DNA from: Aeromicrobium flavum
Lineage (GTDB): Bacteria; Actinomycetota; Actinomycetes; Propionibacteriales; Nocardioidaceae
DNA: 64,000 bases
Direction of reading: 5' to 3'
Assembly (NCBI RefSeq): GCF_007992115.1
Contig: NZ_BJZQ01000001.1
Span: forward strand, 496,001-560,000
A model generated the notes under the pieces. That model saw only the letters and a list, made by a program, of their open reading frames with translations, had not been told where the DNA came from and did not search any database. Of this stretch, positions 10,115-62,030 are shown piece after piece; positions within the stretch are counted from its first letter, which is position 1; each line of letters starts with the position of its first letter. The position numbers and the translations under genes were made by a program.

Positions 10115-10122
10115 TCGTGCGT

Positions 10123-10314: not shown

Positions 10315-10410
10315 GATCGTCCTTTGCTCTTCTGGTCGGCTTGCCACTACCGTACGAGCCGATCGTTGCACTGTCAGCGGAACAGGCGGGCCACGTGAGT
10401 CCCCTCAGCT

Positions 10411-11064
10411 CTACTCAGCGACGAGGGAGTCCGAGGTGTGCCAGATGACGAACCGTTCTCGGGGTGCGGAGTCAGGATCGAGACCGTAGAAGACGGTCGC
10501 TGCGAGAATCGAGAAGCGCGACCCATCCGGGGTAGGGAACAGGTCGCCCTCTTCCATGAACTCGACCGCCTCCGACCTGTGAAGCAATACCGGGAGCGTC
10601 GCGCCCGTTGCCCTGAACGTGTGAGTGTGGTCGTACCGCACGATCGGGAGGTCCTGAGCGACCGCGATATTCGCTTCCTGCCCCGTTACGCCTTGCCCCT
10701 GCAGGCCATATTGTCGCGCCCACGTCTCTGGGTCCAGAGATGACACGTAGCCGTATGAGTCGATGCGCATTCGATGGACGTAGACATTCGAGGCGGTGCT
10801 TGTCAGGAGTACACCGGTCAGATTTCGACTGGAAGGTGCTTCGCCTTGCTGGTCCTCATCGCTCCTTCGCGGCTGAATGGTGAAGTTCACCTCCAGCGTC
10901 GCGAGCGCTACTTGCGCTGACCGGGCCGCGAATTGAGCGGCCGCGACCGACGCCCTTGCCGAGTCACGCGCCGACCTGCCCATCCCAAATGTCACATATA
11001 CGTAGATGGCGGTAACGCCGACGAGTGCAAGGTTGGCAATTATGGCGACCGTGGCTTGAGACAT
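10411..11064 (-). CDS. Membrane-anchored hypothetical protein (element cargo)
   Basis: 217 aa. One N-terminal transmembrane helix (about residues 5-27, ATVAIIANLALVGVTAIYVY) is followed by an Ala/Arg-rich helical linker and a soluble domain of about 150 residues (ending FVIWHTSDSLVAE) with mixed beta-type sequence. No catalytic motif or known family is apparent. GC and codon use are less extreme than in the flanking core genes, consistent with acquired cargo. Accessory positions like this in AICEs hold variable genes, so a defence or exclusion role is conceivable, but nothing in the sequence shows it. Confidence 0.7.
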   Translation of the reverse strand: MSQATVAIIANLALVGVTAIYVYVTFGMGRSARDSARASVAAAQFAARSAQVALATLEVNFTIQPRRSDEDQQGEAPSSRNLTGVLLTSTASNVYVHRMRIDSYGYVSSLDPETWARQYGLQGQGVTGQEANIAVAQDLPIVRYDHTHTFRATGATLPVLLHRSEAVEFMEEGDLFPTPDGSRFSILAATVFYGLDPDSAPRERFVIWHTSDSLVAE

Positions 11065-11184
11065 GGCCGTACGTTCTCACGTCGCGGCCATCTTCGGCAT
11101 TAGATCTCGGGAAACCCTCTGGCTCTTCGATTCTGGGCACGCCTTCGCATCGTGTGATGCGCCACTTCTGTGAATGCGACCTGT

Positions 11185-11964
11185 TCAGCGCCGGACGACT
11201 CGCGACGTCGTAGCGAAGGTTCTCGCCGTCCCTGTCGAAACGATTCGATACTGGAATCGCTTTCTTGCCTTCAACTTGATGGCGAGCGTCGTGCCCTTTG
11301 GAGGGACCACGCGTTTGACGGTTCTCCACGTGCCCCTGCCATTTGCAGTTCGACGCTGGAGGGCGAACTGCTTCTTTAGGCGGTTTGACTTTGAATTGTT
11401 AGCCCAATTCGCCGAGGACCAATTCCCGACTTCGCCGTAGGCTCCGATCGACCAGTACTGGGGACGCGCCGAGACCGTGACCGTTTTTCCCTTGCGCTTC
11501 GCCTTGACGCCTACAAACCTTGCTGACTGCTTGATCGTGACGTACCCGCGGGAAGTGTCGATGAATTCGCCAAGGTCATTACCGTCGGCGTCGTAGTACA
11601 AGACTTCTGATTCGCCTAGGTGATACTTGCCGACCGTCCCGTCGGTGTACCGAGGGCAGTAGTCAAAGGTGCCTGTCAGTCGCCCACGGGACGATTCTTC
11701 GAGGAACACTTCCGTTGAGGAGCCGGGATCGGGCCTCAGATCCGTAGAAACCTGGACCGAATGGACCCATGAGGGGGCATTGTGGCGCGCGTACACGCGA
11801 ATCCTCCGACAAGAATCGGACCGGACTGCGAGATCCTTCGCGGTAAAGCCCCAAACATCAAATGGCCCGTCATCTGCGGCGGTGGCTGTCGCGGGTGAAA
11901 CGGTAAGAAAGAGTCCAGCAATTAGTGCGACGACAGCGGTCGACCCCGAGAGACGTTTCAGCAT
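11185..11964 (-). CDS. Secreted hypothetical protein (element cargo)
   Basis: 259 aa with a classical signal peptide (MLKRLSGSTAVVALIAGLFL, then SPATATA before the mature ADDGPFDV). The mature part is polar and Lys/Arg-rich at its C-terminus, looks beta-rich and has two cysteines (residues near 52 and 101) that could form a disulfide. No family is recognised. A TACTCT -10 element at 11976-11971 sits six bases before the ATG, so the message is probably leaderless. It is a second unknown cargo gene next to the membrane-anchored one. Confidence 0.75.
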   Translation of the reverse strand: MLKRLSGSTAVVALIAGLFLTVSPATATAADDGPFDVWGFTAKDLAVRSDSCRRIRVYARHNAPSWVHSVQVSTDLRPDPGSSTEVFLEESSRGRLTGTFDYCPRYTDGTVGKYHLGESEVLYYDADGNDLGEFIDTSRGYVTIKQSARFVGVKAKRKGKTVTVSARPQYWSIGAYGEVGNWSSANWANNSKSNRLKKQFALQRRTANGRGTWRTVKRVVPPKGTTLAIKLKARKRFQYRIVSTGTARTFATTSRVVRR

Positions 11965-12033
11965 GTGCTGAGAGTAGCTTCCGTAGGCCTCGGAATCTGT
12001 GAAACGGGAGGCGCTAGCGACATGAATGGGCCC

Positions 12034-47676: not shown

Positions 47677-48144
47677 ATGATCACTTTGTCGCTCCGGACA
47701 AGCGCCGCCATTCACCGGTACCTGCGGCACGTCGCGCCCATCAACATCGCCGTTGCCTGGCTTCGCTCGCCGCACGGCAGCACTTGGGCCATTCCCATCG
47801 GGCTCATGCTCGCAATCGGGTACTTCCACGCGTCGAGTTTTTGTGCCGTGATCGTTGAGTCCAGCGGACCTGGCTGGGTGAACCTGTTGGTCATCCTCTT
47901 CTTCTGGAACTCGCAGAAGTTCGTCTGGGTCGCGATATTCGGAATGCGGCGAGTGCCCCTGATCGTCTCGCGTGCCGACCATCGGAAATGTCGGAGAGGT
48001 CCTCGTCGCAATGCCGATCCTCCTGGGAATGTCGGGCCGTCATTTCCTGCACCGGAGCGGTCCAGACGCTCGGCTTCGAGCCCGCCACGCCTGAGTTCGG
48101 TCCCCGCCAGCCCTCGTCGGATTCCTGGCGGTCTGGCGTCTTAG
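47677..48144 (+). CDS. Small membrane protein of plasmid/ICE type, probably 3'-degenerate
   Basis: 155 aa. Residues 1-95 (APINIAVAWLRSPHGSTWAI, GPGWVNLLVILFFWNSQKFV and WVAIFG) have two or three hydrophobic segments and resemble small membrane proteins commonly next to relaxase genes on actinobacterial plasmids. From about residue 96 the sequence turns into Arg/Pro/Ser-rich text without membrane segments, suggesting that a frameshift or deletion destroyed the original end. Confidence 0.45.
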   Translation: MITLSLRTSAAIHRYLRHVAPINIAVAWLRSPHGSTWAIPIGLMLAIGYFHASSFCAVIVESSGPGWVNLLVILFFWNSQKFVWVAIFGMRRVPLIVSRADHRKCRRGPRRNADPPGNVGPSFPAPERSRRSASSPPRLSSVPASPRRIPGGLAS

Positions 48145-48298
48145 CCCCTGGGCCGACGGTCCCCCAGAAGTGGTGCGTAGATCGCCTGAGCGCGGTCGCG
48201 ATTGGTGGGGATAGATCTACTGCGGCGATGGAGTCGCAGCAAGGCGGGCCTGTGGCAACGAAGTCGGCGCGATTCGGGCCGTGGTCGTGCGGCCCCGT

Positions 48299-48641
48299 TC
48301 AGGAGGTGGTGAGGGCTTCCGTGTCGCGTGCGGTGGGGTCGTGCAGCACCTCGGCGAGGAGCCCGGAGAAACGGGGGGCGTTGGAGTAGAAGGCCCAGGG
48401 TGCCCCGCTGTTCGCGGGCGAGGAGTCCGGCCTCGACGAGGATCTTGAGGTGGTGCGAGACCGTGGGCTGGCTCAGTCCGACGGGCTCGGTGATGTCGCA
48501 GAGCGTGAGCAGCCGGACTCGCGGGATCGGCGAGCGCCTTGAACTTGCGCGCGAACTCGCCGCGTCCTCGTGAGCTATTGGTGCCGCTGTGAGCGGGATG
48601 CAGCAGTCCGCGTCTTGCCCGGCGAGGGTAGCCAAATCCAA
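48299..48641 (-). pseudogene. ArsR/SmtB-family metal regulator, frameshifted
   Basis: One frame reads CDITEPVGLSQPTVSHHLKI then LVEAGLLAREQRGT, the recognition helix region of ArsR regulators, with an N-terminal DADCC motif. The expected EFARKFKALADP and the end AFYSNAPRFSGLLAEVLHDP lie in other frames. Two frameshifts, near 48525 and 48400, therefore break the gene. If intact it would have been a Cys-rich metal or arsenic sensor. Confidence 0.7.
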
Positions 48642-48751: not shown

Positions 48752-49057
48752 TCACCTGTGGTCGTGCCCCCCGGGCATGGCGAACATCATGGCCGCCATC
48801 ATCGCGGTGCACAGGAGCGCGGCAACGACCAGGTTGGTACCCGCAACACCGGTCAGGAACAGCAGGCCGGCGATGAGCAACATAGGAACGCAGCAGATGA
48901 TCATCATCAAACCGTGACCGCGATGTGTCCCGTGGCCGACGCTGTCGGACTCGTGCCCGCCATGGTGGTTTTCGGAACTCGGCGAGGACTCCCCCGGATG
49001 GTGCCCCGCGTGCCCATCGCTGTGCGCACCGTGATCCATGCCGTGTGGCGTACTCAT
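48752..49057 (-). CDS. His-rich small membrane protein
   Basis: 101 aa. The N-terminal half is packed with His and acidic residues (MSTPHGMDHGAHSDGHAGHH, then ENHHGGHESDSVGHG). The C-terminal half forms two membrane helices (LMMIICCVPMLLIAGLLFLT and LVVAALLCTAMMAAMMFAM) with a CC pair and ends in GGHDHR. The start overlaps the stop of the upstream gene (ATGA). It is probably a periplasm-facing metal-binding membrane protein of the copper island. No characterised homologue is known to me. Confidence 0.75.
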   Translation of the reverse strand: MSTPHGMDHGAHSDGHAGHHPGESSPSSENHHGGHESDSVGHGTHRGHGLMMIICCVPMLLIAGLLFLTGVAGTNLVVAALLCTAMMAAMMFAMPGGHDHR

Positions 49058-49299
49058 GATGTCTTTCCTTTCAAGGAGGCGGGCATGTGCCCGAGTTTGG
49101 CGTACAGCGGGCAGTGTCCGAGCGCTCCGGTGACGATGAGGTCGAGGCCTGCCGCCAGCAACAGCAGTTCGAGGACGACAGCCCAGGTGGATGAGGCGCC
49201 AGCCAGCAGCACGATTCCGGTAACGGTGCCGAGCGCTCCGACGACCACTCGAGCGACGCGTTCGGCAGGGGTGATGTTGATGCTCCACCGCTTACTCAT
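49054..49299 (-). CDS. DUF2892 (YgaP-type) inner membrane protein
   Basis: 81 aa from ATG 49299, preceded by GGAGGAG. It reads MSKRWSINITPAERVARVVV, then two membrane helices and LIVTGALGHCPLYAKLG, the standard DUF2892 pattern with its conserved Cys-Pro. In other bacteria this domain is fused or adjacent to rhodanese-type sulfur transferases. It heads an operon with the His-rich gene and has one of the island's 17-bp motifs 86 bp upstream. Confidence 0.8.
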   Translation of the reverse strand: MSKRWSINITPAERVARVVVGALGTVTGIVLLAGASSTWAVVLELLLLAAGLDLIVTGALGHCPLYAKLGHMPASLKGKTS

Positions 49300-49384
49300 G
49301 ATCTCCTCCAACTCTTGGTCGACCGCCGATATCCGGTCCAATTCGATGTTCTCGCCGCGCGGTGAAGGTGACCGGCGTTGTCTC

Positions 49385-49401
49385 GTGAAGGTTCGTTGAA
49401 G
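49385..49401 (-). promoter_or_regulatory. CopR-type direct-repeat motif, site 1
   Basis: On the minus strand CTTCAACGAACCTTCAC: two CTTCA units 11 bp apart, 86 bp before the DUF2892 start and pointing toward it. It matches the perfect form (sites 2 and 6) at 16 of 17 positions. Confidence 0.65.
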
Positions 49402-49477
49402 AAGCGCTCGGTGGGGGGTGCCATGTCGACCGTTGGGTTTCCGGGACACGCAGCAGCCGGCGTCATGGCGCGGGTCG

Positions 49478-49972
49478 TCAGCCGTGGTGACCCTCGTGCT
49501 CGTCCGGATCAACGGTCCGCACAGGAACCCGTTCCTGGTCGCCGTTGCTGATGGCGGGACCGATGACGAAGGCCGAGAGGGAGAACATCAGCGCGAACAC
49601 ACCCAACGCGAGGGCGGGCGCCTTCCACGAGTCGAATCGTCGATGAAGACGTCGCAGTAGCGGTATGGAGAAGACCAGTCCGACGACGGCGAACAGCACG
49701 TTGCCGGTCGCGCCGGTCACCAGTACTGCTCCGCCGAGAAGGCCGACGTGGTGCAGCAGGTGGGGGAGCAGGCCCATGATGGCGCCGACAAGCGCGGTCA
49801 GTGCGTCCCATGCAGTCCCGAAGACGCCCACGTGCTTGTCAGATTCAGGACGAGCGAGTTCCGCCAAGTTGAGCTCACGATCCGGGACGTGGTGTGCGGG
49901 CATCGTCAGCCGCCCGTCCGGTGGGACAGCGTGGTCATCATGCCGGTCTCGGCGTGGTGAATGTCGTGGCAT
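49478..49972 (-). CDS. Membrane protein of the copper island, unknown function
   Basis: 164 aa from ATG 49972, favoured by AGGGGA upstream; a later ATG at 49903 lacks a ribosome site. A basic/His-rich N-terminus (MPRHSPRRDRHDDHAVPPDG) is followed by three hydrophobic segments (LTALVGAIMGLLPHLLHHVG, VTGATGNVLFAVVGLVF and ALGVFALMFSLSAFVIGPAI) with a LLHH motif, and an acidic His tail DPDEHEGHHG. Membrane proteins of this type occur near copper ATPases in actinobacteria. The His residues suggest metal binding. Confidence 0.7.
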   Translation of the reverse strand: MPRHSPRRDRHDDHAVPPDGRLTMPAHHVPDRELNLAELARPESDKHVGVFGTAWDALTALVGAIMGLLPHLLHHVGLLGGAVLVTGATGNVLFAVVGLVFSIPLLRRLHRRFDSWKAPALALGVFALMFSLSAFVIGPAISNGDQERVPVRTVDPDEHEGHHG

Positions 49973-50062
49973 GGTGGGTCGTCCCCTGGCTCGGGTTGTG
50001 GCTTCGAAGTTCACTTCCAAGGCCCGCCATCGGGCACGATGACCACGATCGGACCTGGGTCC

Positions 50063-50362
50063 TCATGGCACGCCGTCGATCTCGTTGCGGCGACAAGACG
50101 GTGGTTGGTTCTCCTGCCGCTGTGAGGTGCGCAGCACGGTGCTGCGGGCGTGGTACTCGTCCTCGTTGATCTCGCCGCGGGCGAACCGCTCGTTAAGGAT
50201 CTGCATCGGGTCCCTGCGATCAGAAGGGGATGCATCAGTGCTCTGAGTGCCGCGGAAGATCGCGATCACTGCAACGACCACCAACGCCCAGAACGCGACC
50301 ATGGCCAGGGTCATGAGGATCCAACCGACCCATCCCGTGCCGTCGTGATACCAACCCATCAT
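50063..50362 (-). CDS. SHOCT-domain membrane protein
   Basis: 99 aa from ATG 50362 with GGAGGAG upstream. One membrane helix (VGWILMTLAMVAFWALVVVA) is followed by a SHOCT domain (DPMQILNERFARGEINEDEY) with the invariant LxxRFARGEIxxxEY pattern. The role of SHOCT proteins is not settled; they often accompany metal and redox genes. A perfect 17-bp motif lies 75 bp upstream, shared with the divergent response-regulator gene. Confidence 0.85.
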   Translation of the reverse strand: MMGWYHDGTGWVGWILMTLAMVAFWALVVVAVIAIFRGTQSTDASPSDRRDPMQILNERFARGEINEDEYHARSTVLRTSQRQENQPPSCRRNEIDGVP

Positions 50363-50436
50363 CGTGCTCAGCTCCTCCGTCGGGCCTCGTACTTTCAATG
50401 ATCGACCCGGCACCAGGGCGACATAGTGGTCTTCGT

Positions 50437-50453
50437 GTGAAGGTTCGCTGAAG
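50437..50453 (-). promoter_or_regulatory. CopR-type direct-repeat motif, site 2
   Basis: GTGAAGGTTCGCTGAAG on the plus strand, i.e. CTTCAGCGAACCTTCAC toward the SHOCT gene. It lies in the divergent gap to the response-regulator gene, so it may control both. Confidence 0.65.
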
Positions 50454-50506
50454 GATGGGCCGCCCGCGGTGCTGATCTGGGCTGGTAGGGCAGATGGACT
50501 GCCATC

Positions 50507-51283
50507 ATGTCGGGTATGGGCGAGGACGTGATCAACGGAACGGCCGGCTCACCGGCGGGAGGTGCCGCGGGTGTTCGTCCCCCGACGGGCCTGCGGGCGA
50601 TGGTCGTCGAGGACGAGACGCACCTTGCGGGGGTCATCGGCAGCTACCTCGAACGCGAAGGCCTGGAGGTGGCTGTGGTCCACGACGGTATGGAGGCATT
50701 GGAAGTCGCTCGAACCGTCGATCCGGATGTGGTGGTGCTGGACTTGGGTCTGCCGAGTCTGGACGGTGTGGAGGTCTGTCGGCAATTGCGCACATTCTCC
50801 GATGCCTATGTGGTGATGCTGACAGCGCGCAGCGAGGAGGTCGACACCTTGATCGGCCTCTCGGTGGGGGCAGACGACTACATGACCAAGCCTTTCAGCC
50901 CTCGGATCCTGATGGCCCGGATCCAGGCACTGCTGCGCCGACCTCGGAAGCCGGATGGGGCAGACGACCAGGTGGAGGGGGCCCGGACCTTCGGTGCGTT
51001 GGTCGTCGATCCGCTGGGGCGGGACGTCTGGCTCGAGGGGGAACCGGTGTCGTTGACGCGCACCGAGTTCGACCTTCTGGCCGCTCTCTCCGACCACCCG
51101 CAGATGGCATTCAGCCGCCGGCAGCTCATCGACACCGTCTGGGGTCCCACCTGGGTCGGCGATGAACATCTGGTCGACGTCCACGTCGGGCACTTGCGGC
51201 GCAAACTCAACGACGACGCCAGCCAGGCCCGATTCATCCGCACCGTCCGTGGAGTCGGCTACCGGATGGGCACCGGCCAGTGA
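50507..51283 (+). CDS. OmpR-family response regulator (CopR-like)
   Basis: 258 aa. The receiver domain starts after a 27-aa extension: MVVEDE, phosphoacceptor Asp79 in VVVLDLGLPSLDG, Thr in MLTARSEE and Lys in YMTKPFSP. The winged-helix DNA-binding domain ends VDVHVGHLRRKLNDD and IRTVRGVGYRMG. Its gene overlaps that of the sensor kinase (GTGA), lies in a copper island, and has the island's direct-repeat motif in its own promoter, so it is the likely reader of that motif. The copper link is inferred from context. Confidence 0.93.
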   Translation: MSGMGEDVINGTAGSPAGGAAGVRPPTGLRAMVVEDETHLAGVIGSYLEREGLEVAVVHDGMEALEVARTVDPDVVVLDLGLPSLDGVEVCRQLRTFSDAYVVMLTARSEEVDTLIGLSVGADDYMTKPFSPRILMARIQALLRRPRKPDGADDQVEGARTFGALVVDPLGRDVWLEGEPVSLTRTEFDLLAALSDHPQMAFSRRQLIDTVWGPTWVGDEHLVDVHVGHLRRKLNDDASQARFIRTVRGVGYRMGTGQ

Positions 51284-52404
51284 CCGACCGCCGAGCTCGC
51301 GCGGACACGACCCGTGTCCGCTCTCGGTTCGCCGCTCGGCTCCTGGTGGCCCAAGCCCTGGTCCTCGTGGCCGGGGCCCTGACCACGTGGCTCGTGGCTT
51401 CCGTCGTGGGCCCCGGCATCTTCAGCGACCACCTGCAACAGGCCGGTGACGAACACACCGCCGAACAGATTCGCCATGTGGAGGAGGCCTTCGCCTCCGC
51501 GCTGGTTCTGTCCATCTCTCTCGCGCTGATCGCCTCGGTGCTCGCAGCGCTGGCCGTCTCCTGGTACTTCAGCCGCCGGGTTCAGCGTTCGATCAGCGAC
51601 GTCGCGGCGGCGGCGGCACAGGTCGCTGCCGGCCGGTACGGCGCCCGGGTGCCCGACCCGGGACTGGGTGAAGAGTTCGCCTCGCTCGCACTGACCTACA
51701 ACCGCCTCGCCGAGAGACTCGAAGCGACGGAGTCGACCCGCCGGAGCATGCTGGCCGACCTGGCACACGAGATGCGGACCCCCCTGGCCACGATCGACGC
51801 CCATCTCGAGGCCGTCGAGGACGGCATCCGGTACCTCGATGACGACACCCTGGGCGTCATCCGGGGCTCGACAGGCCGACTGCGGCGCTTGGCCGAGGAC
51901 ATGACCGCCGTGTCGCGAGCGGAGGAAGGGCTCGACGTCACGCTGCGACCCGTGCCGGCAGCGGATGCTGCTGCGGCGGCCATCGAGGCCGCACGTGACC
52001 GGTACGCCACCAAGGGGGTTCGCCTGCTCAGCGAACTCGCCGACGCCGGCCAGGTCCGCCTTGACTCCGACAGATTCGGACAGGTGCTCGGCAACCTGCT
52101 CGACAACGCTCTGCGCCACACTCCGACGGGCGGGACCGTCACCTTGGACTGTCGCCGCATCGATGACTGGGTCCAGTACCGCGTCAGCGACACGGGCCAG
52201 GGGGTGGCGGCAGAGCACCTGCCGCACCTGTTCGACCGGTTCTACCGCGCCGACAGCGCCCGCGACCGCGGCCACGGTGGCTCTGGCATCGGTCTGGCGA
52301 TCGCCAAGGCGCTCGTGGAGGCACAAGGCGGTGGCATCTCGGTGACCAGTGCCGGGCCCGGGAGCGGCACGACGTTCACGTTGCGCTTTCCCTGCTTCAA
52401 GTAA
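51280..52404 (+). CDS. Two-component sensor histidine kinase (CopS-like)
   Basis: 374 aa from GTG 51280. Two membrane helices (about 20-45 and 73-95) enclose a short external loop of about 30 residues containing three His (GIFSDHLQQAGDEHTAEQIR), a plausible metal site. HAMP domain (SRRVQRSISDVAAAAAQVAA), dimerisation/phosphoacceptor His163 in LADLAHEMRTPLATI, N box QVLGNLLDNALRHT, and G boxes SDTGQGVAAEHLPHLFDRFY and GSGIGLAIAKALVEA. It pairs with the response regulator it overlaps. Confidence 0.94.
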   Translation: MTDRRARADTTRVRSRFAARLLVAQALVLVAGALTTWLVASVVGPGIFSDHLQQAGDEHTAEQIRHVEEAFASALVLSISLALIASVLAALAVSWYFSRRVQRSISDVAAAAAQVAAGRYGARVPDPGLGEEFASLALTYNRLAERLEATESTRRSMLADLAHEMRTPLATIDAHLEAVEDGIRYLDDDTLGVIRGSTGRLRRLAEDMTAVSRAEEGLDVTLRPVPAADAAAAAIEAARDRYATKGVRLLSELADAGQVRLDSDRFGQVLGNLLDNALRHTPTGGTVTLDCRRIDDWVQYRVSDTGQGVAAEHLPHLFDRFYRADSARDRGHGGSGIGLAIAKALVEAQGGGISVTSAGPGSGTTFTLRFPCFK

Positions 52405-52433
52405 CTCGTCCGCCCGGACTGAACGGCCCGGAT

Positions 52434-52450
52434 CTTCAGCGAAACATCAC
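52434..52450 (+). promoter_or_regulatory. CopR-type direct-repeat motif, site 3
   Basis: CTTCAGCGAAACATCAC, two mismatches from the perfect form, pointing toward csoR. Confidence 0.5.
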
Positions 52451-52552
52451 AGAACCTCGCGGCCTTTCACCTACTGCCCTGGCCATCATGGCCGTGTTCA
52501 ACACCGACTCGGTGAACGACATCAGCGTCTGACAGGGCAGGAAGCGGCGAAC

Positions 52553-52569
52553 ATGAAGGTTCGACGAAG
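52553..52569 (-). promoter_or_regulatory. CopR-type direct-repeat motif, site 4
   Basis: ATGAAGGTTCGACGAAG on the plus strand. This is the only copy pointing away from its nearest downstream gene (csoR). Confidence 0.45.
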
Positions 52570-52627
52570 TTCTCTTCGCGGCCGTGCTTTTCATTGCCCG
52601 GTGGGGGTATGGTCAGTCACGAAGACC

Positions 52628-52646
52628 GATACCCCCAAGGGGTATC
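52628..52646 (+). promoter_or_regulatory. CsoR operator
   Basis: GATACCCCCAAGGGGTATC: 8-bp perfect inverted arms around a 3-nt centre, the known GC-rich TACCCC/GGGGTA type bound by CsoR repressors. It lies between a -10-like element and the csoR ribosome site, so Cu(I)-free CsoR would block its own operon. Confidence 0.85.
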
Positions 52647-52664
52647 TTCCGAAGGAGTTTCGCG

Positions 52665-52949
52665 ATGGCCGTTGAACCGGGATACATCACCGAGAAGCAG
52701 GCTGTCCTCGCCAGGCTCCGTCGCGTTGAGGGTCAGGTGCGTGGCCTGCAGCGGCTGGTGGACGAGGAGCAGTACTGCATCGACATCCTCACCCAGTTGT
52801 CGGCGGCCACGAAGGCTCTCGAAGGGGTCGCGCTGCTGTTACTCGACCAGCATCTCGAACACTGCCTGACGCACCCCACCGACCCTGCCGAGGCCCAGCA
52901 GAAGCTCAACGAGGCCTCCGCAGCGATCCGGCGACTCGTCCGCTCATGA
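52665..52949 (+). CDS. csoR: Copper-sensing repressor CsoR
   Basis: 94 aa from ATG 52665 with GAAGGAG upstream. All-helical DUF156 protein: LARLRRVEGQVRGLQRLVDE is the family signature. The Cu(I) ligands Cys38, His63 and Cys67 (QYCIDIL; DQHLEHC) form the intact C-H-C set, so it is a copper rather than a formaldehyde sensor. Apo-CsoR represses; Cu(I) releases it. A perfect operator sits just before the gene, and copZ, copA and a second ATPase follow. Confidence 0.95.
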   Translation: MAVEPGYITEKQAVLARLRRVEGQVRGLQRLVDEEQYCIDILTQLSAATKALEGVALLLLDQHLEHCLTHPTDPAEAQQKLNEASAAIRRLVRS

Positions 52950-52975
52950 TCGATCCATCAAACGAAGGAGCACCC

Positions 52976-53356
52976 ATGTCCGTGTCAGACGACAGCCGCA
53001 ATCTTCAACTGCTCGACTCCTCCGCCGGCGACGGCGGGTGCGGCTGCGGGGGATGCGGCTGCGGATCCAACACCCAGTCCGAAAGTTCGACCGACACCAC
53101 CACTGAGGCGATCACCATCGCCGCGACGAAGGAGAGCGACATGACCACCAACACCTACGCCGTCACCGGAATGACCTGCGGCCACTGCGCCAGCGCCGTC
53201 ACCGGCGAACTCAAGAGCCTCGACGGGGTCTCCGACGTCAGCGTCGACCTCGTCGCCGGCGGTACCTCGACAGTCACCGTCGCGAGCGCCGAGCCACTCG
53301 ACCAGACCCAGGTCGCCGCCGCCCTCGACGAGGCCGGCGACTACCAACTCGCCTGA
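52976..53356 (+). CDS. copZ: CopZ-like copper chaperone with Cys/Gly-rich N-terminal extension
   Basis: 126 aa from ATG 52976, with AGGAG upstream. The C-terminal 70 residues are a heavy-metal-associated domain ([20 protein letters not shown]), which carries Cu(I) to CopA. The first 60 residues are unusual for CopZ: a Cys-Gly cluster ([12 protein letters not shown]), then a Ser/Thr/Glu linker. An internal ATG before MTTNTYAV would give a normal-size chaperone, so two forms are possible. It lies between csoR and copA. Confidence 0.88.
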
Positions 53357-53408
53357 GGACCGAAACCCTCACGCGCATCCCGATTCAATCCAGGCAGGAG
53401 ACACAGTC

Positions 53409-55754
53409 ATGGCACAACCAACCCCTACGGTCGACGCGCTGCACGACGTCGAGCTCGCCATCGGCGGGATGACCTGTGCCTCCTGCGCCGCGCGGATCGA
53501 AAAGAAGCTGAACAAGGTCGAGGGTGTGTCGGCCACGGTCAACTACGCCACCGAAAAGGCCAAGGTCAGTTATCCGACGACGCTCACCCCTGCCGATCTT
53601 GTCAGCGTGGTGGAGGCCACCGGGTACACCGCGACCGTGCCCACTCAGGCGGCCAGCGGTGACGACCCTTCGACCGACGCGCAGACGGACCACCGGGATC
53701 TGGAGGCCGCGAGCTGGCGACAGCGCCTGATCGTCTCAACCGTGCTCTCCGTCCCGGTCCTGGCGATGTCGATGATTCCGGCGTTGCAGTTCGACAACTG
53801 GCAGTGGATCTCACTGACGCTGGCCTCACCCGTGGTCGTCTGGGGGGCGGCCCCGTTCCACCGTGCCGCGGTGACCAACGCGCGCCACGGCGCGGCGACC
53901 ATGGACACCCTCATTTCCGTCGGAGTCACCGCCGCGTGGCTCTGGTCGTTGTGGGCGCTGCTGTTCACCCACGCCGGGATGACTGGCATGCGGATGCCGT
54001 TCGACCTCTTCCCGGATGGTGAAGCTGACGTCCACATCTACCTGGAGGTCGCGGCGGCGGTGACCACCTTCATCATTGCGGGCCGCTACTTCGAGGCTCG
54101 AGCCAAGCGCCAGTCTGGAGCGGCTTTACGCGCCCTGCTCGACATGGGCGCCAAGGACGTTGCCGTCCTGCGCGGCGGCACGGAGGTGCGCGTGCCGGTG
54201 GGCCAACTTGAGGTCGGCGACCGGTTCCTGGTGCGCCCGGGCGAGAAGGTCGCCACCGATGGCGTCGTCGAGGACGGTACATCGGCAATCGACGCGTCCA
54301 TGCTCACGGGCGAGTCGGTCCCCGTCGAGGTCGGGCCCGGTGATGTCGTCGTGGGCGCCACGGTGAACGCCGGCGGACGTCTGGTGGTCCGGGCCGCCCG
54401 CGTCGGAGCCGACACCCAACTCGCCCAGATGGCACGGCTGGTCGAGGACGCCCAGAACGGCAAGGCGCAGGTCCAGCGACTCGCCGACCGTGTCTCAGCC
54501 GTATTCGTGCCCATCGTGCTCGTGCTCTCCTTGGTCACGCTCACCGCTTGGCTGCTGACTGGTCACAGCGTCACCGCCGCATTCACCGCCGCGGTGGCGG
54601 TGCTGATCATCGCCTGCCCCTGCGCCCTCGGTCTCGCGACCCCCACCGCACTGCTCGTCGGGACCGGCCGCGGTGCCCAACTCGGCGTGCTCATCAAGGG
54701 CCCGGAGGTGCTCGAGTCCACTCGGGTGGTCGACACGATCGTCCTGGACAAGACCGGCACCGTGACCACCGGAAGGATGGAACTGGTCGATGTGGTCCCC
54801 GCCGATGGTGTGAACAGTGCCGATCTGCTCCGGCTGGTCGGTGCCCTCGAGAACGCCTCGGAACACCCCATCGGTCAGGCCATTGCCACCGGGGCCAGCC
54901 AACGACTCGAGTCGCAGCTGCCCGATGTCGAGGGATTCTCCTCGACCCAAGGCCTCGGCGTCGCCGGGGTGGTCGACGGCCACGCGGTCGTGGCCGGCCG
55001 CCCCGGCTGGCTGGCCCGAGAGTGGAACCAACCCCTCGACGCGAGCCTGGCGGGAGTGGTCGAGGCCGCGGAACAGCAAGGCCGGACCGTGATCGCCGCT
55101 GGCTGGGACGGAGCGGCCCGCGGGGTCGTCGTGGTCTCCGACGCGATCAAGCCCACGAGTGCGCAGGCCGTGGCCGAGCTCAAGGAGCTGGGACTCGAGC
55201 CGATTCTGCTCACCGGTGACAACGAACGCGCTGCCCGTGCCGTCGCCGCCGAGGTGGGCATCGAGCAGGTGATCGCCGAGGTCCTCCCCGCTGAGAAGGT
55301 CGCCACTGTCGAGCGTTTGCAGCGCGAGGGCCGCACGGTCGCCATGGTGGGAGACGGCGTCAACGACGCCGCGGCACTGGCCACCTCCAACCTGGGCATC
55401 GCCATGGGCACCGGCACCGACGCCGCCATCGAGGCTTCCGACCTCACTCTCGTTCGCGGCGACCTGCGCGCCGCCGTGGACGCGATCCGGCTCTCTCGGC
55501 GCACGCTGCGGACCATCAAGAGCAACCTGTTCTGGGCCTTCGCCTACAACGTTGCGGCGCTGCCCCTGGCCGCGCTCGGTCTGCTCAACCCGCTGATCGC
55601 CGGCGCTGCCATGGCGTTCTCCTCGGTGTTCGTCGTGTCGAACAGTTTGCGACTGCGGCGCTTCCAGCCCGTCTCGACGCAGACAGCCGAGACGTCGCAC
55701 GCTCGCCTTGACTCAAGCAAGACCAACCTTTCCCATGTGGAGGCAGGACGATGA
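53409..55754 (+). CDS. copA: Copper-exporting P1B-type ATPase
   Basis: 781 aa. One N-terminal metal-binding domain ([20 protein letters not shown]), then eight expected membrane helices. The metal-site motif is CPC in [19 protein letters not shown]. The actuator has LTGESVPV, the phosphorylation site is [11 protein letters not shown], the HP motif is SEHPIG, and the hinge is [13 protein letters not shown]. All P1B-1 (Cu+) features are intact. It exports Cu(I) from the cytoplasm. Its stop overlaps the start of a second ATPase gene. Confidence 0.95.
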
Positions 55755-58195
55755 CGACGCACCAGCACACGAGCGGCCACCGCGACCATCACGCGCAGCG
55801 TGACGGGGGTACCACCGCCATCATCGAGGTCTCTGGGGTCCAGTGGGCGTCCAGCAAGAACGTCGCCGAAGCGATGCTGTCGCGCCGGCCCGGGGTGCTC
55901 TCCGTCGATGCCAACCCGGTCGCCCAGACGGCCACCGTCACCTATGACCCGAAGCGCACCAGCGTGAGCGATCTGCGGGACTGGGTGCGCGAATGCGGCT
56001 TCCACTGCGCGGGACAGTCGGTTCCCAATCATGTGTGCGATCCGATGCTCGAACCTGGCCGTGACGAGCACGAGCTCCAGCACGACGGTCACGACGCGGG
56101 CACCAGCCACGCAGGCGCGGCTTCGCCGATCTCGTCACCGCATGATGCGATGGGCCACGGCGGTCACGCGACGATGTCGATGGCTGACATGGTTCGCGAC
56201 ATGCGCAACCGATTCCTGGTCGCCCTGCTGCTCGCGGTACCCATCACGCTGTATTCGCCGATGGGGCGGGACATGCTCGGCTTCGACGCGGCCGCTCCAT
56301 TCGGGATGCGCGATGACATCTTCGCCTTGATCCTGTCCCTGCCGGTGATCTTCTACTCGGCCTGGATCTTCTTCGACGGTGCCTGGCGAGCGCTCCGGGC
56401 CAAGACCCTGGACATGATGGTGCTGGTGGCCGTGGCCGTCGGAGCCGGCTGGCTGTACTCCCTCGGAGTCACCGTCACCGGGGGCGGTGAGGTCTTCTAC
56501 GAGGCCGTTGTCATGCTCACCGTGTTCGTGTTGCTCGGCCACTGGTTCGAGATGCGGGCACGAGGCGGCGCCAACGACGCGATCCGTACGTTGCTTGATC
56601 TGGCTCCGCCGTTGGCGGTCGTTCTCCGCGAAGGCGAACCGGTCGAAGTTCCCACCTCCGAGGTCGAGGTCGATGACCTTCTCCTGATCCGGCCGGGGGC
56701 GAAGATCGCCACTGACGGCACCGTCGAAGAGGGCGAGTCGGAGGTCGACGAGTCCATGGTCACCGGCGAGAGCCTCCCGGTGCACAAGGGGCCCGGCGAT
56801 CGGGTCATCGGCGCCACCATCAACGCCAGCGGCACCATCCGGGTGCGCGCCACCAAGGTGGGCGCTGACACCGCTCTGGCACAGATCGTCGCGCTGGTGC
56901 AACAGGCGCAGAACTCCAAAGCGCCGGGACAGCGACTCGCGGACAGGGCCGCATTCTGGCTCGTTCTGGTCGCACTGGTCGGTGGAGTCGGCACCTTCCT
57001 GGTTTGGCTCGCTGCCGGCGCAAGCGTGCAGACTGCGCTGCTGTTCGCCATCACCGTGGTCGTGATCACCTGCCCCGACGCCCTTGGACTCGCCACGCCG
57101 ACAGCAATCATGGTCGGCTCCGGCCTCGGCGCGAAACGCGGGATTCTGTTCAAGAACGCCACCGCCATCGAGAGCTCCGCGCGCGTCGACACCGTCGTCT
57201 TCGACAAGACCGGCACCCTCACCAAGGGGGAGCCCGAGGTCACGGACGTCATTGTCGGCGACTTCGATCGCGATCGGGTCCTGGCGCTCGCGGGCGCACT
57301 CGAACGAGAGTCCGAACATCCTCTCGCTCAGGCCGTCGTGCGCCACGTCGATGCAACCGATGTGCCGCGCTTGCGCGCCACCGCGTTCCGCAACGTCACG
57401 GGCATCGGCGCCCTCGCCGAGGTCGACGGCCACCAGATCGCCATCGGCAACCGTCGCCTCATGGAATCCGAAGCGATCACCATCGGTGACCTGGGTGCGC
57501 AGCGCGACGAGATCGCCGCCGGCGGTCGCACGGCGGTGTTCGTTGCCGTCGATGATCGGGTCGTCGCGGTGATCGGGATCGCCGACGCGGTCCGCGAGAC
57601 GTCCGCCGCCGCGATCTCCGCACTTCACGAGGCGGGCATCAGGGTCGCCATGCTCACCGGCGACAACCGTGCGACCGCCGAGCGGATCGCCGAGGAGTTG
57701 GGAATCGACGACGTCATCGCGGACGTCCTGCCCGAGGACAAGGCACACCAGGTCAAGCAACTGCAGGCGCAGGGGCGCACCGTGGCGATGGTCGGTGACG
57801 GAGTCAACGACTCGCCTTCTCTCGTGCAGGCAGACGTCGGCATCGCGGTTGGCGCGGGTACCGACGTCGCGATCGACGCCGCAGACGTCGTTCTCATGAG
57901 GTCGGACCCGCTGGACGTCCCCGTGGCGCTGACGATTGGCCGAGGCACACTGCGCAAGATGCGTCAGAATCTCGGTTGGGCGGTGGGATACAACGCGATC
58001 GCGCTACCCATCGCGGCAGGTGTCTTCCAACCGTCCTTCGGCCTGGTCCTGAGGCCCGAGGTCGCCGCCTTGTCGATGTCCGGCTCCAGCTTGCTGGTGG
58101 CAGTCAACGCGCTGCTGCTCAAGCGACTGCGGTTGCCCGGGCAGCAGCCCGAGAACGATCCCACCCAGCGTTCGGAGATGCAGCGGGCGTCCTGA
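55751..58195 (+). CDS. Second heavy-metal P1B-type ATPase with atypical CPD motif
   Basis: 814 aa from an ATG overlapping the copA stop. A His-rich start ([20 protein letters not shown]) is followed by a degenerate ferredoxin-like domain lacking CxxC (residues 22-75), then a second His-rich stretch ([27 protein letters not shown]). The catalytic core is complete ([46 protein letters not shown]). The membrane metal motif reads CPD ([20 protein letters not shown]) near residue 441 instead of CPC or CPH. It resembles CopB-like His-rich ATPases, but the ion, possibly Cu or Ag, cannot be read from sequence. Confidence 0.88.
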
Positions 58196-58208
58196 GAGAA
58201 CTTGTGCC

Positions 58209-58613
58209 TCAGCCCAGACTGGCGAGGAGGTCGCGACAGGCTTCCTCGCACCGGCGGCAGGCCTCGGCGCAGATGCGGCAGTGCGCGTGCATGCTGCCGT
58301 GACTCTCACACTCGTCGCCACAGGCCTCGCACGCGGCGGCACAGGCTTCCAAGAACGCTCGGGTCACATCGGCGTCGTATCCAGTGCGCCTCGATAGCAT
58401 GTTGCCTGTCGCAACGCAGATGTCGGAGCAGTCCAGATTGGTGCGGATGCATGTCGTCAATTCGGCGACCATGTCCTCGGCCAGGCACGCGTCAGCACAA
58501 GCCGTGCAGGCTTGGGCGCATTCGAAGCAGGCTGCGATGCACTCGGCCAACTTCTGCTTGTCGATCTGACCCAGATCCTTCGGGTAAGCATCCAGCATCT
58601 TCGTGTGAACCAT
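58209..58613 (-). CDS. csp: Cytosolic copper storage protein (Csp/DUF326, four-helix bundle)
   Basis: 134 aa with 18 cysteines placed as CxxxC along helices (AECIAACFECAQACTACADA, EACAAACEACGDECESH, CRICAEACRRCEEACRDL), the hallmark of Csp proteins, which bind many Cu(I) ions inside a four-helix bundle. It lacks a signal peptide, so it is the cytosolic Csp3 type. ATG 58613 with GGAGGAG upstream. It converges with the ATPase operon. Its 170-bp upstream gap shows none of the island's 17-bp motifs. Confidence 0.92.
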   Translation of the reverse strand: MVHTKMLDAYPKDLGQIDKQKLAECIAACFECAQACTACADACLAEDMVAELTTCIRTNLDCSDICVATGNMLSRRTGYDADVTRAFLEACAAACEACGDECESHGSMHAHCRICAEACRRCEEACRDLLASLG

Positions 58614-58784
58614 GGTTCTCCTCCTCGAAATGGTGGTGGCGGGTGACCTGCATCTGACGACCGGTGGGAACCGCCCTCCCGTGATCAGTACCCGTCCGGT
58701 AGGCGGACCATTCGCTCACGAGCTTCTTGCCCAGGGGATGTAGGTGTCCTGGACCGCCAGCCGCGATCGGAGGGGCCATGACTG

Positions 58785-59627
58785 CTAAGTGAGGCGACTC
58801 CACGTGGCACCTGAGGTCGTCGATTCGAAGACGGCATCACCCGCGGCTGCGTACCAGCGATCCGGCGTCACTTCGAGTGCCTCCGGGGAGTCCGGGAGCG
58901 CACCTCCTGCTCTCCAGCTCTCACCGCCGTCCCGACTCACATGAACACGTCCAGTGGCTGCAATGCCCACGACGAGACCGTCCTGGCCCCCATCGATGTA
59001 CGCCAAGGACGGTGCGACGACGGTCCGCGCGCGAGCTCCATCGCTCGCGGGATAACGAATCAATCCGCCGGACGGGGTCGTCACGAAGAGGTCGGTCGAG
59101 TCGAGATCGGTGGCGACGTCAATCACCGGACGTTCATCGATCGTGATCCAGTTCGTACGGTCGCTCGTGAGAAGCAGCTGTCCGGAAACGCTGTTGTAGC
59201 CCGCCAGCCGAGAGTCAGTGCCATCGAGTGCGTGGAAGTCTGCCTTTCCCGCTAGGGACACCTGCCGCCACGTCTTCCCCGCGTCGATGGACTCCATCAG
59301 ACCGAGATGCGTGGGCAGGTCGCTTGCCAGGTCCGGGTGACCACTCGCGACGAAATGCCCGGGACCGATCACCGAGAATCCCATGAGATCGTGCCAAGCT
59401 TCCCCGACCCGCCGCGGTGGCGACCCTTCCTCCACGGTGAACAGGCCCAGATGAGATGCCACGAAGAGAGTCCCGTCGGCGGGGTCGATTCCCATGCCGT
59501 GAACGTGCCCCATGGCATCGCCCGACGTTGACTCGATCTTTGGTGCTGCCGTGCCGCAGGCCGCGAGCGAGGACACGATTACGGCGGATACAACAACTGC
59601 CGCACAGGCGCGGCGGGTGTTACTCAC
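58785..59627 (-). CDS. Lipoprotein with BNR/sialidase-type repeats (F510_1955-like)
   Basis: 280 aa from GTG 59627, chosen because the protein then starts with a lipoprotein signal (VSNTRRACAAVVVSAVIVSS, then LAAC). The mature protein starts with VHGMGIDPADGTLFVASHLG and repeats Asp-box-like units (IDAGKTWRQVS, RDGGESWRAGG, SGATWSRL), indicating a beta-propeller. This type is often labelled a glycosylhydrolase but is known from copper-resistance neighbourhoods; activity is doubtful. The conserved GHVHGMGID may bind metal. A direct-repeat motif lies 143 bp upstream. Confidence 0.8.
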   Translation of the reverse strand: MSNTRRACAAVVVSAVIVSSLAACGTAAPKIESTSGDAMGHVHGMGIDPADGTLFVASHLGLFTVEEGSPPRRVGEAWHDLMGFSVIGPGHFVASGHPDLASDLPTHLGLMESIDAGKTWRQVSLAGKADFHALDGTDSRLAGYNSVSGQLLLTSDRTNWITIDERPVIDVATDLDSTDLFVTTPSGGLIRYPASDGARARTVVAPSLAYIDGGQDGLVVGIAATGRVHVSRDGGESWRAGGALPDSPEALEVTPDRWYAAAGDAVFESTTSGATWSRLT

Positions 59628-59768
59628 GTGACAGCCCTTCTGTCGAGGACGGTAACGGTGAACTCTCCGGCGTGGCCGGCTCGTGGCGTCATACAGGTCA
59701 TCTCCGGCTAGCTTGCTGAAATCCCTATAGAGCCAACACGAAACATGTGTCGGAATGTTCACCGCGCA

Positions 59769-59785
59769 ATGAAGCTTCCCTGAAG
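59769..59785 (-). promoter_or_regulatory. CopR-type direct-repeat motif, site 5
   Basis: Minus strand CTTCAGGGAAGCTTCAT, 143 bp before the BNR lipoprotein start and pointing toward it. Confidence 0.5.
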
Positions 59786-59919
59786 ATTTCAGCGTGACCG
59801 GCTCGGCCTTTCACTCCCGGGCAATGGGACGTCGTACAACGAACGTGGCACCGTGGCCGCACTTGTGCGTGTTGTCGAGCAAGGACCCAGCAGCACCCGG
59901 CTGATTCACGAAGCGGGAT

Positions 59920-59936
59920 CTTCAGCGAACCTTCAC
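59920..59936 (+). promoter_or_regulatory. CopR-type direct-repeat motif, site 6
   Basis: CTTCAGCGAACCTTCAC, identical to site 2, 71 bp before the gene at 60007 and pointing toward it. Confidence 0.65.
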
Positions 59937-60006
59937 GGAATCAGCGCCCCAGTCGGGAGTGGGGAGCGGATGCTGGGGTGGTTCGTCCCAGGGAGTGGAG
60001 TTCGAC

Positions 60007-60240
60007 ATGAACCGGTTCAATGGCAAGTTGGTGTGGTTCGTCGCCGTAAGTGCGGCCGTGCTGGTCGGTGCGTTCGCCATGGGTGCGCCACCGTCGGGAT
60101 TCGTGCTCATCCTCCTGCTCGCTTGCCCGTTGATGATGCTTCTTTTCATGCCTGAAACGCATGGCGAGGCTGACGAGGACGACGACTCGCGGCCCGTCGA
60201 GAAGGACCTTCAGCGGTGCGGGCCCCGCAGCGGACACTGA
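60007..60240 (+). CDS. Small membrane protein (DUF2933-like)
   Basis: 77 aa from ATG 60007, preceded by GGAGTGGAG. Two adjacent membrane helices (LVWFVAVSAAVLVGAFAM and GFVLILLLACPLMMLLFM, with a CP pair) are followed by H and a highly acidic tail (GEADEDDDSRP). It resembles the small CPL-containing membrane proteins that accompany copper determinants, including the His-rich gene at 48752-49057. One perfect direct-repeat motif precedes it. Confidence 0.75.
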   Translation: MNRFNGKLVWFVAVSAAVLVGAFAMGAPPSGFVLILLLACPLMMLLFMPETHGEADEDDDSRPVEKDLQRCGPRSGH

Positions 60241-60321
60241 GGCCACGTGGAGTGTCGTTTCTGACCGCTTAAGGCCATCAATCTCACCCGGGCGCACAAC
60301 GCGAGCGTCCAAAAGGGTGCC

Positions 60322-61302
60322 TCAGGGTCGATCGACCCCGCCCGGCCACGCATTGGCCCGACACCCATCGAGGGTTTTGGTCTGTTGGAGCATGACCGGA
60401 GCTGGCGCGCCGTTGCCTGGGCAAGCGGCGTGGGGGAGCCCGAGCGCATGGCCGAACTCGTGGTTGATCAGGTACCGACGATATGCACCGATGTCCTTCC
60501 CGTAAGACGGGGCGCCATTCACCCAGCGCCAGGCGTTGATCACGACCCGATCCCCATTGCGGCACGAGAGGCGGCCGGCGGTGTCAAGGGGAGCGCACAG
60601 GTCATCCGCCGTCTGTGGCGACGCGAGAATGATCCTCACTGAGGCATCGTTCGCCACACGAGTGAATTCGTGGCCAGGGGACGCCCACCCCCGGGGATCG
60701 CTGAGGGTGGCGTCCACGGCTCGCGCGAAGCCCGCTGGCGCGAACGAAAGGCCCTCCTCGACTTCGACTTGGTAGGTCATGGTCGTGGGCGTGGATTTCC
60801 GCGGGGCAGAAGGGGTAGGTGCGATCTGGAACCTGCCTGACGCTGCCTCCGGGACACTGACCGGCTTGTCCGTGTCCGTGGATCGCCGCGCGGGTGGCCG
60901 GGCGGAACGGCTGCCCCGGCTTTCGACGTGGTCCTTCGGCGGCGACGGTCTGGCACGTGGCAACTCTGACCGAGCATCCGAACCGTTGGAAGCTGGGTCA
61001 TCGGGGAGTTGCTTCTGTCCGTTGCCGACATAAGGGACGAGGAAAGCAGTTGCAACCACGGCTGCGGCCGACGCGGGTAGTCCTATCCACGCGGTCCTGG
61101 GTCTTCGCGCGCGCTGGGGCTGACGGCGCCGGTGTCCTCGCGGAGCCACCGGGCTGGCGGCTCCACTGCGACTCCTTCTTCGGGAACCTGTCACGACCTC
61201 GCTCGATCTGGAAGGGCGGCGTGCCGCCGGGCTGGGGGGGGAAGTGACCCAGCGGCACGCCAGTCGGCTGCAGCATCCATTCCGACGGCAGGTCGGAATC
61301 AT
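60322..61302 (-). CDS. DUF3152-type secreted/membrane-anchored zinc protease-like protein
   Basis: Up to 326 aa; the start is uncertain (ATG 61302 as listed; GTG codons further in would give about 300 aa). A basic N-terminus is followed by one membrane helix (WIGLPASAAAVVATAFLVPY, about residues 72-91), a disordered Pro/Ser/Arg linker and a C-terminal domain from MTYQVEVEEGLSFAPAGFAR to the end. That domain has a metzincin-like HEFGHALGLPH motif (HExxHxxGxxH) followed by PVMLQQ, the Met-turn-like segment. This fits DUF3152 proteins of actinobacteria. It lies 26 bp after the DUF305 gene, probably in one transcript. Confidence 0.8.
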   Translation of the reverse strand: MIPTCRRNGCCSRLACRWVTSPPSPAARRPSRSSEVVTGSRRRSRSGAASPVAPRGHRRRQPQRARRPRTAWIGLPASAAAVVATAFLVPYVGNGQKQLPDDPASNGSDARSELPRARPSPPKDHVESRGSRSARPPARRSTDTDKPVSVPEAASGRFQIAPTPSAPRKSTPTTMTYQVEVEEGLSFAPAGFARAVDATLSDPRGWASPGHEFTRVANDASVRIILASPQTADDLCAPLDTAGRLSCRNGDRVVINAWRWVNGAPSYGKDIGAYRRYLINHEFGHALGLPHAACPGNGAPAPVMLQQTKTLDGCRANAWPGGVDRP

Positions 61303-61328
61303 GGTGGAGATGCTGCGAAAACGCTGCG

Positions 61329-61934
61329 TCAGGACCCGAGGAGACTGTTCATCAGGTCGATTTCAGCCTGCTGGTCGCTGATCACCTTCTGTGCCATCGC
61401 GATCGCGTCGGCATTCTCGCCGTCCTGGACTTCCGTCTCGGCCATGGCGACCGCACCCTCGTGGTGCTCGATCATCATCTGCAGGAACATGCGGTCGAAC
61501 TCAGCGCCAGATGCATCCTCGAGGGACTTCATGTCCTCCTCGTCCATCATCCCGGCCATGCCGCCTTCGTCACTGGACCCGTGGTTCATGTCCCCGTGGT
61601 CCATCTCCCCGGACGGCACGTCTTCACCCCAGCTCTCGAGCCAGCCCTCAAGGGTCTCGATCTCGGGACCCTGCGCGGCTTCGATGTCGGCAGCCAAGGA
61701 CTTGACTTCGTCGCTGCCGGCACGTGTCTCGGCGACCTTGGCCATCTCGATCGCCTGCTCGTGGTGAGGGATCATCTGTTGGGCGAACGTGACATCCGCG
61801 TCATTGAACGGGGCGCTCTGGCTGGAGGAGGAGCCCGTGTCGCTCGACTTTCCGCCATCGGAATCGTCGCTGCATGCGGCCAGGGTGAGACCGATCGTCG
61901 CGAACAGCGTGAGAGCCGCCAGCTTCCTCTTCAT
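61329..61934 (-). CDS. DUF305 lipoprotein (ferritin-like, metal-associated)
   Basis: 201 aa from ATG 61934, with GGAGAAA upstream. Lipoprotein signal MKRKLAALTLFATIGLTLAAC, a Ser/Asp linker, then two DUF305 helical pairs with the conserved FAQQMIPHHEQAIEMAKVAE and FDRMFLQMMIEHHEGAVAMA, separated by a Met/His-rich loop (GEMDHGDMNHGSSDEGGMAG). Such Met/His motifs bind Cu in periplasmic copper proteins. Its promoter carries motif site 7, 80 bp upstream. Confidence 0.92.
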   Translation of the reverse strand: MKRKLAALTLFATIGLTLAACSDDSDGGKSSDTGSSSSQSAPFNDADVTFAQQMIPHHEQAIEMAKVAETRAGSDEVKSLAADIEAAQGPEIETLEGWLESWGEDVPSGEMDHGDMNHGSSDEGGMAGMMDEEDMKSLEDASGAEFDRMFLQMMIEHHEGAVAMAETEVQDGENADAIAMAQKVISDQQAEIDLMNSLLGS

Positions 61935-62013
61935 CAGGTTTTCTCCATCTCTGGTCGTCTTCAGTACGCCAGCGAGTCTGCCTCCCGAATGTGAAGAGCG
62001 ACCACGCTCAGTC

Positions 62014-62030
62014 CTCAAGGTTCCATGAAG
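62014..62030 (-). promoter_or_regulatory. CopR-type direct-repeat motif, site 7
   Basis: Minus strand CTTCATGGAACCTTGAG, the most diverged copy, 80 bp before the DUF305 start and pointing toward it. Confidence 0.5.

Follow-up and report, generated by a model that had tools for sequence, protein, structure and literature searches.

Seven 17-bp direct repeats are distributed over a copper island in a 64-kb window of the Aeromicrobium flavum genome (contig NZ_BJZQ01000001.1), and we propose that they serve as binding sites (CopR boxes) for a CopR-like response regulator whose gene lies in the same island at positions 50507-51283, a reading to which we assign a probability of about 0.88. Each repeat contains two CTTCA units (TGAAG on the opposite strand) with an 11-bp period, as an initial annotation of the window had described, and all of its seven sites (49385, 50437, 52434, 52553, 59769, 59920 and 62014) were recovered both by pattern searches and by an independent matrix; the seven-site observation is therefore confirmed. 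Three observations favour the assignment to this regulator, which the annotation had named as the probable owner of the motif: the repeats match the published CopR box of Corynebacterium glutamicum, all 11 same-family genomes that were found to carry the regulator gene have a box upstream of it, and motif and regulator co-occur among genomes. The compact regulon claimed earlier is likewise supported, as one of CopR type, a precedent that the annotation did not name. On the best reading the island is a multi-promoter member of the known CopRS kind of regulon that has more members and follows a promoter rule by which it can be tested. New here are the fixed spacing between box and -10-like hexamer, the retention of boxes through gene rearrangement, the combination of a reversed box with a sequence resembling a CsoR operator, and a sister clade in which the half-site is TCAAG.

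The CopRS system of C. glutamicum provides the closest comparison. In the part of the report by Schelder et al. (2011, PMC3140484) used here, CopR binds TGAAGATTTgaTGAAGATTT, located 59-78 bp before copR, by electrophoretic mobility shift assay and mutation; its apparent dissociation constant decreases from 2.3 to 0.4 uM upon phosphorylation, activation needs CopRS and copper, three loop histidines of the kinase are listed as possible copper ligands, and the similarity of plasmid pLEW279b to the cop region of C. glutamicum is given as 97%. The A. flavum island has the same traits of a box upstream of the regulator gene, a CopR-homologous OmpR-family regulator with a short-loop kinase containing histidines, and adjoining copper-resistance genes with a copper ATPase downstream. 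The published box TGAAGATTTnnTGAAGATTT shares the TGAAG half-site and the 11-bp period and lies at -59 to -78 from copR, versus about -69 to -50 here, the window box beginning 69 bp before the regulator gene. The divergent multicopper oxidase gene of C. glutamicum is also found in relatives of the window but not in the window itself. Further differences are that one box is described in that part of the report versus seven here, that the flanks after TGAAG are not alike (GTTCG versus ATTTGA), and that the csoR operon and the SHOCT, YgaP-like, DUF2933 and DUF305 genes are added as predicted targets. The regulator and kinase of pLEW279b are 51% and 42% identical to those of the window, a comparison made with the plasmid proteins and not with C. 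glutamicum CopR itself, and on a Corynebacterium marinum plasmid a regulator with 53% identity to that of the window is preceded by the published box, unchanged in every letter. These values indicate homology, strict orthology of the regulators not being established; pLEW279b (L160) forms a long branch in the tree. A second TGAAG-N6-TGAAG box was observed on pLEW279b at 6273-6288, with TAGGGT 34 nucleotides (nt) away, aimed at a gene for a four-helix bundle copper-binding protein (5755-6165, minus strand), which is likely a second CopR target.

The repeats are strongly concentrated in the island. A search for CTTCAGCGAACCTTCAC that allowed up to 3 mismatches gave six of the sites and nothing else in the window (shuffle mean 0.15, maximum 2); perfect copies of the 17-mer are found at 50437 and 59920 (2 of 7), and site 62014 was recovered as CTTCA-N6-CTTCA with 1 mismatch, a pattern that gave 8 window matches, including an unrelated place at 14951, against a shuffle mean of 1.31. 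Over the whole genome (3,090,412 bases in 31 contigs) the exact CTTCA-N6-CTTCA pattern occurs at 4 places, all inside the island, and the degenerate 17-mer CTTCANSGAANCTTCAY, when as many as 2 mismatches are allowed, at 9, of which the island holds 7 (reversed control 4), so that the motif is not equally dense in core promoters, in agreement with the regulon claim. The 1-mismatch form of CTTCA-N6-CTTCA is uninformative by itself, since its genome count (56) is close to that of the reversed control (50). A 20-bp matrix was built from boxes upstream of related response regulators elsewhere (22 sites, 17 unique), with the window sites excluded and circularity thus avoided; its top seven matches in the window are exactly the seven sites, at 33.1 to 22.3 bits, the eighth scores 17.6, and a score of 22.3 bits was not reached in any of 20 Markov-shuffled sequences of 64 kb. 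By the same matrix the two CTTCANSGAANCTTCAY places outside the island score 11.5 and 18.5 bits; both lie in long open stretches and neither has a -10-like hexamer at 33-34 nt (the one on contig C2 has none at 33-35 nt). The higher-scoring place (G000:C15:37141-37157), with TACCGT 35 nt away, may be a weak eighth site.

Motif and regulator also occur together in other genomes. Among 293 genomes of the order, searched at a threshold of E<=1e-75, the regulator is present in 11 same-family genomes (L120-L130, A. flavum included; G210, one of them, is apparently the same genome as L011), and an exact TGAAG-N6-TGAAG box lies shortly upstream of it in every one. The pattern TGAAGNTTCGNTGAAG was found at 38 places in 22 of the 293 genomes (reversed control 1); the regulator is carried by 15 of these 22, and 27 of the 38 places are no more than 15 kb away from it. 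Upstream of the regulator, 6 of the 13 nearest loci from named collections (L010-L022) have an exact box (L018 in the other orientation), 2 have one with 1 mismatch and 5 have none, and 7 of 12 plasmid loci have TGAAG- or TCAAG-type boxes there, the other 5 having none. In a tree of 89 regulators the window falls in a 17-row clade (support 100/99, near-copies included) with a box in all rows. The box positions that recur in relatives are the divergent SHOCT/regulator promoter, the YgaP-like operon, csoR and DUF305. At one locus with changed gene order (L212), the SHOCT, DUF2933, F510_1955 and DUF305 boxes are still on the correct side of their genes (SHOCT with one exact and one near box, F510_1955 and DUF305 each with 1 half-site mismatch), and the boxed genes thus keep their own boxes through rearrangement.

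A fixed distance separates the boxes from a promoter-like element. We scanned 34 loci containing 75 boxes (score >=22, AA in the first half-site), of which 66 were left once similar flanks had been removed. Read in the CTTCA direction, a hexamer whose second letter is A and whose sixth is T (e.g. GAGGCT, CAGACT or GACGCT) begins at offset 34 in 38 boxes and at offset 33 in 14, or in 51 of the 66 altogether, one box having both; the count at any other offset is at most 6, and the largest single-offset count in 2000 shuffles was 10. In the window such hexamers stand 34 nt from boxes 49385, 50437 and 62014 and 33 nt from 59920; box 52434, which was excluded by the AA filter and whose flank was read separately, has CATCAT at 34. 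If the hexamer is a -10 element, the box would span about -62 to -47 of the predicted transcripts, beside the -35 region, as for an activator. Six copies point toward the next gene, 52553 being the exception, and the distance of about 71-86 bp to the start codon noted earlier for four boxes holds for the YgaP-like, SHOCT, DUF2933 and DUF305 genes. The initial annotation can be refined in that 52434 is probably a relic, that 52553 is reversed, an orientation conserved at csoR, and that the SHOCT gene and the regulator share a single box. The coordinates are collected in Table 1.

Table 1. Proposed CopR boxes, predicted promoter elements and genes of the copper island (window positions)
Feature	Position	Strand	Remarks
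CopR box 1	49385..49401	-	towards YgaP-like/His-rich operon; 31.3 bits; GAACAT at 34 nt
Predicted -10 GAACAT of YgaP-like operon	49346..49351	-	34 nt from box; start putative
CopR box 2	50437..50453	-	between divergent SHOCT and response-regulator genes; perfect 17-mer; 28.6 bits
Predicted -10 GATCAT of SHOCT gene	50398..50403	-	34 nt from box 2
CopR box 3, degenerate	52434..52450	+	23.1 bits; CATCAT at 34 nt; counterpart of L205:9152 and L206:9937
CopR box 4, opposite orientation, upstream of csoR	52553..52569	-	25.2 bits; reversed in relatives too
Predicted csoR -10 TATGGT	52608..52613	+	38 nt from box 4
CsoR-operator-like palindrome	52628..52646	.	GATACCCCCAAGGGGTATC
CopR box 5	59769..59785	-	towards F510_1955 (BNR) lipoprotein gene, 142 bp off; 27.0 bits
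CopR box 6	59920..59936	+	towards DUF2933 gene; perfect 17-mer; 33.1 bits; GATGCT at 33 nt (59969-59974)
CopR box 7	62014..62030	-	towards DUF305 gene; 22.3 bits; CAGACT at 34 nt
Predicted -10 CAGACT of DUF305 gene	61975..61980	-	34 nt from box 7
CopR-like response regulator, OmpR/PhoB type	50507..51283	+	PF00072, PF00486; 51-53% to corynebacterial CopR-type regulators
CopS-like sensor kinase, short loop with conserved His51 and His66	51280..52404	+	PF00672, PF00512, PF02518
CsoR-family repressor	52665..52949	+	PF02583
Heavy-metal-associated domain protein (copper chaperone-like)	52979..53356	+	PF00403
Copper-type P-type ATPase	53409..55754	+	TIGR01511 above cut-off
Second copper-type P-type ATPase	55751..58195	+	TIGR01511 above cut-off
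SHOCT-domain small protein	50066..50362	-	PF09851
YgaP-like membrane protein	49057-49299	-	PF11127
His-rich protein	48755-49057	-	no Pfam match
F510_1955-family (BNR) lipoprotein, GTG start	58785..59627	-	NF045728 above cut-off
DUF2933 small membrane protein	60007..60240	+	PF11666
DUF305 (CopM-type) protein	61329..61934	-	PF03713; NF049983 CopM above cut-off

The csoR promoter is built differently. Its box is reversed, an orientation shared by its counterparts in relatives. In 9 of 10 csoR rows read by eye (several of them near-copies) a TANNNT hexamer follows the box at 36-38 nt when read in the TGAAG direction; the row of L203 does not fit. Tracts resembling TACCCC/GGGGTA lie near the csoR -10 in several relatives, with none in L203, and the window has the palindrome GATACCCCCAAGGGGTATC, which from its C-tract/G-tract type may be a CsoR operator. 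Given the reversed box and this palindrome at one promoter, the simplest reading is dual copper control of the export operon, which should answer to external copper through CopR and to internal copper through CsoR. An island stretch that has no CopR/CopS genes (L213, in genome G144) retains a csoR box at 10228.

The proposed mechanism would begin with the kinase, which may sense excess extracytoplasmic copper through its short loop; of the two conserved loop histidines, His51 is found in 51 and His66 in 52 of 53 aligned kinases. The regulator would then be phosphorylated, and two monomers would bind head-to-tail to the pair of TGAAG half-sites, which are separated by one helical turn. Where the promoter reads in the CTTCA direction, the putative -10 follows the end of the box by 33-34 nt; the box then lies beside the -35 region, from which bound regulator is expected to recruit RNA polymerase. 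The genes predicted to be switched on are SHOCT, the YgaP-like/His-rich operon, DUF2933, DUF305 and the regulator's own operon, and probably F510_1955, and at csoR the export operon would respond to both coppers.

Several findings weigh against this proposal. On their CTTCA side, two boxes of the window (59769 and 52553) lack a -10-like hexamer at 33-35 nt, and in the regulator's own direction no clear -10 is seen in the window and no conserved one in its clade. A -10 at 34 nt on the CTTCA side is absent from the corynebacterial loci, and the start mapped for cg3286 lies far from the C. glutamicum box (PMC3140484). No clear box was found within about 260 bp upstream of the match start for 45 of 90 distinct regulators, partly because the match start may lie inside the gene; the boxless regulators include those of L014, L015, L017, L019 and L020 and of the plasmid loci L155, L157, L158 and L159, and plasmid locus L153 has a degenerate box only. 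At E<=1e-75, 7 of the 22 genomes with TGAAGNTTCGNTGAAG have no regulator, and in G144, with its retained csoR box, the best regulator match is only 44% identical. The last two facts would also be expected if another OmpR-family regulator bound the boxes and the 50507 gene merely co-travelled on the island, which we consider improbable; the box lies upstream of the regulator itself in all 11 same-family genomes carrying it, CopR provides a precedent of equal half-site and period, and most motif places (27 of 38) are near a regulator gene. A regulator more distant from that of the window (about 37-39% identity; L094, G275:C1:2535218) has a box at its start, and other OmpR-family regulators may thus use it.

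That the repeats are operators of CsoR or of another metal repressor is suggested by the CsoR-family gene in the island and by the single box in its promoter; this is very improbable, as the box is a direct repeat free of C/G tracts, a separate palindrome is present at 52628-52646, and the boxes stand upstream of the -10 at a fixed distance, as for activators. The constant distance could instead mean that CTTCA is the -35 core-promoter element of an alternative sigma factor. The usual -35 to -10 spacing is 16-19 nt, and this element was rejected because the 33-34 nt measured from the second unit is too long; two units are conserved and the csoR boxes are reversed, and we give the idea still less weight than a repressor operator. 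A patchy island, with the regulator in 3 of 24 same-genus genomes and relatives on plasmids, might be taken to carry a chance or mobile-element repeat of no regulatory role, the least credible explanation of all: enrichment is far above that of shuffled sequences, the fixed -10 spacing in non-redundant flanks contradicts it, and the genome-wide counts together with the shuffles rule out a chance origin of the repeats.

The CopR-box reading remains preferred. As judged by sequence, the nearest solved proteins include mycobacterial MtrA, RegX3, PrrA and PhoP. Regulators of the PhoB/PhoP/MtrA type bind direct-repeat boxes of two half-sites with an 11-bp period as tandem monomers; their half-site sequence, gene content and box-to-minus-10 distance differ from those described here (33-34 nt). 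Proteobacterial CusRS/CopRS systems share the copper two-component logic and the receiver and winged-helix domains. Membership in the proteobacterial CusR/CopR families was rejected, the scores being far under the cut-offs (144.7 vs 279.2 bits for TIGR01387 and 168.1 vs 292.55 bits for TIGR01386). When TGAAGATTT and copper were searched in the literature, the relevant work among the matches listed was limited to two papers on C. glutamicum.

The half-site itself varies. In a second family of the order (L131-L201) the box upstream of the regulator reads TCAAG-N6-TCAAG or TCAAG-N6-CCAAG with the same period, and of 22 rows, near-copies and one TTAAG row among them, 18 show a -10-like hexamer on the opposite side of the box at 33 nt. 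In the regulator's direction a -10 is present at about 47-50 nt in the TCAAG-type and corynebacterial loci; the counts of this comparison for the TGAAG group are approximate and were not used, the flanks of L010 and L121 having come from other identical boxes of those loci, a problem that does not affect the 51 of 66 given above. This sister clade and the 45 of 90 regulators with no clear box in the upstream stretch covered rule out a universal TGAAG rule. Residue 229 of the regulator lies in a stretch that we take from PhoB-type proteins to be the recognition helix. All TCAAG types (21 of 21) have Asn at this residue, and 21 of 22 TGAAG-first types have His; the exception is pLEW279b, with Asn and TGAAG. 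Since 20 of the 21 TCAAG rows (all except L195) fall within one 24-row clade, phylogeny confounds the correlation, which is therefore a lead; with the pLEW279b exception, a causal role of residue 229 in half-site choice is left unestablished.

On a wider view, at even odds in our judgment, the CopR box at a fixed 33-34 nt from a -10 would be a portable copper-activation cassette of the Actinomycetota that stays with the SHOCT, YgaP-like, DUF2933, DUF305 and F510_1955 genes when gene order changes, adds to CsoR control at csoR, and in one clade exchanged its TGAAG half-site for TCAAG along with a change of residue 229 in the recognition helix from His to Asn. The single-site copper switch of one corynebacterium would then become a predictable regulon in other Actinomycetota, whose targets the 20-bp matrix and the fixed -10 spacing would name. 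Several poorly understood small proteins would be placed in the copper response (no literature was found linking F510_1955 to copper), dual external and internal copper control of the export operon is predicted, and the natural half-site variation offers material on how OmpR-family proteins read DNA.

Comparison with relatives shows two absences in the window. Box 52434 matches in position the exact boxes L205:9152 and L206:9937. In L206 the box is followed by a glutaredoxin-like gene (below the Pfam cut-off), DsbD/CcdA-like and AhpC/redoxin genes, and then the csoR box (9937-11977); in the corresponding stretch of the window (52434-52569) this redox operon is missing and a degenerate box remains, probably as the relic promoter of the lost operon. 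The gap between the two boxes is about 100 bp in the window and about 155 in L205. Relatives also have a multicopper oxidase gene between SHOCT and the next gene, which is absent from the window between 49481 and 50362; a search of the A. flavum genome gave no match, and the same query matches the relatives' loci at 53-63%. At the left edge of the island, an ArsR-type helix-turn-helix stretch (48141-48641, minus strand) covers 16-45 of 47 positions of the Pfam profile and is possibly a fragment.

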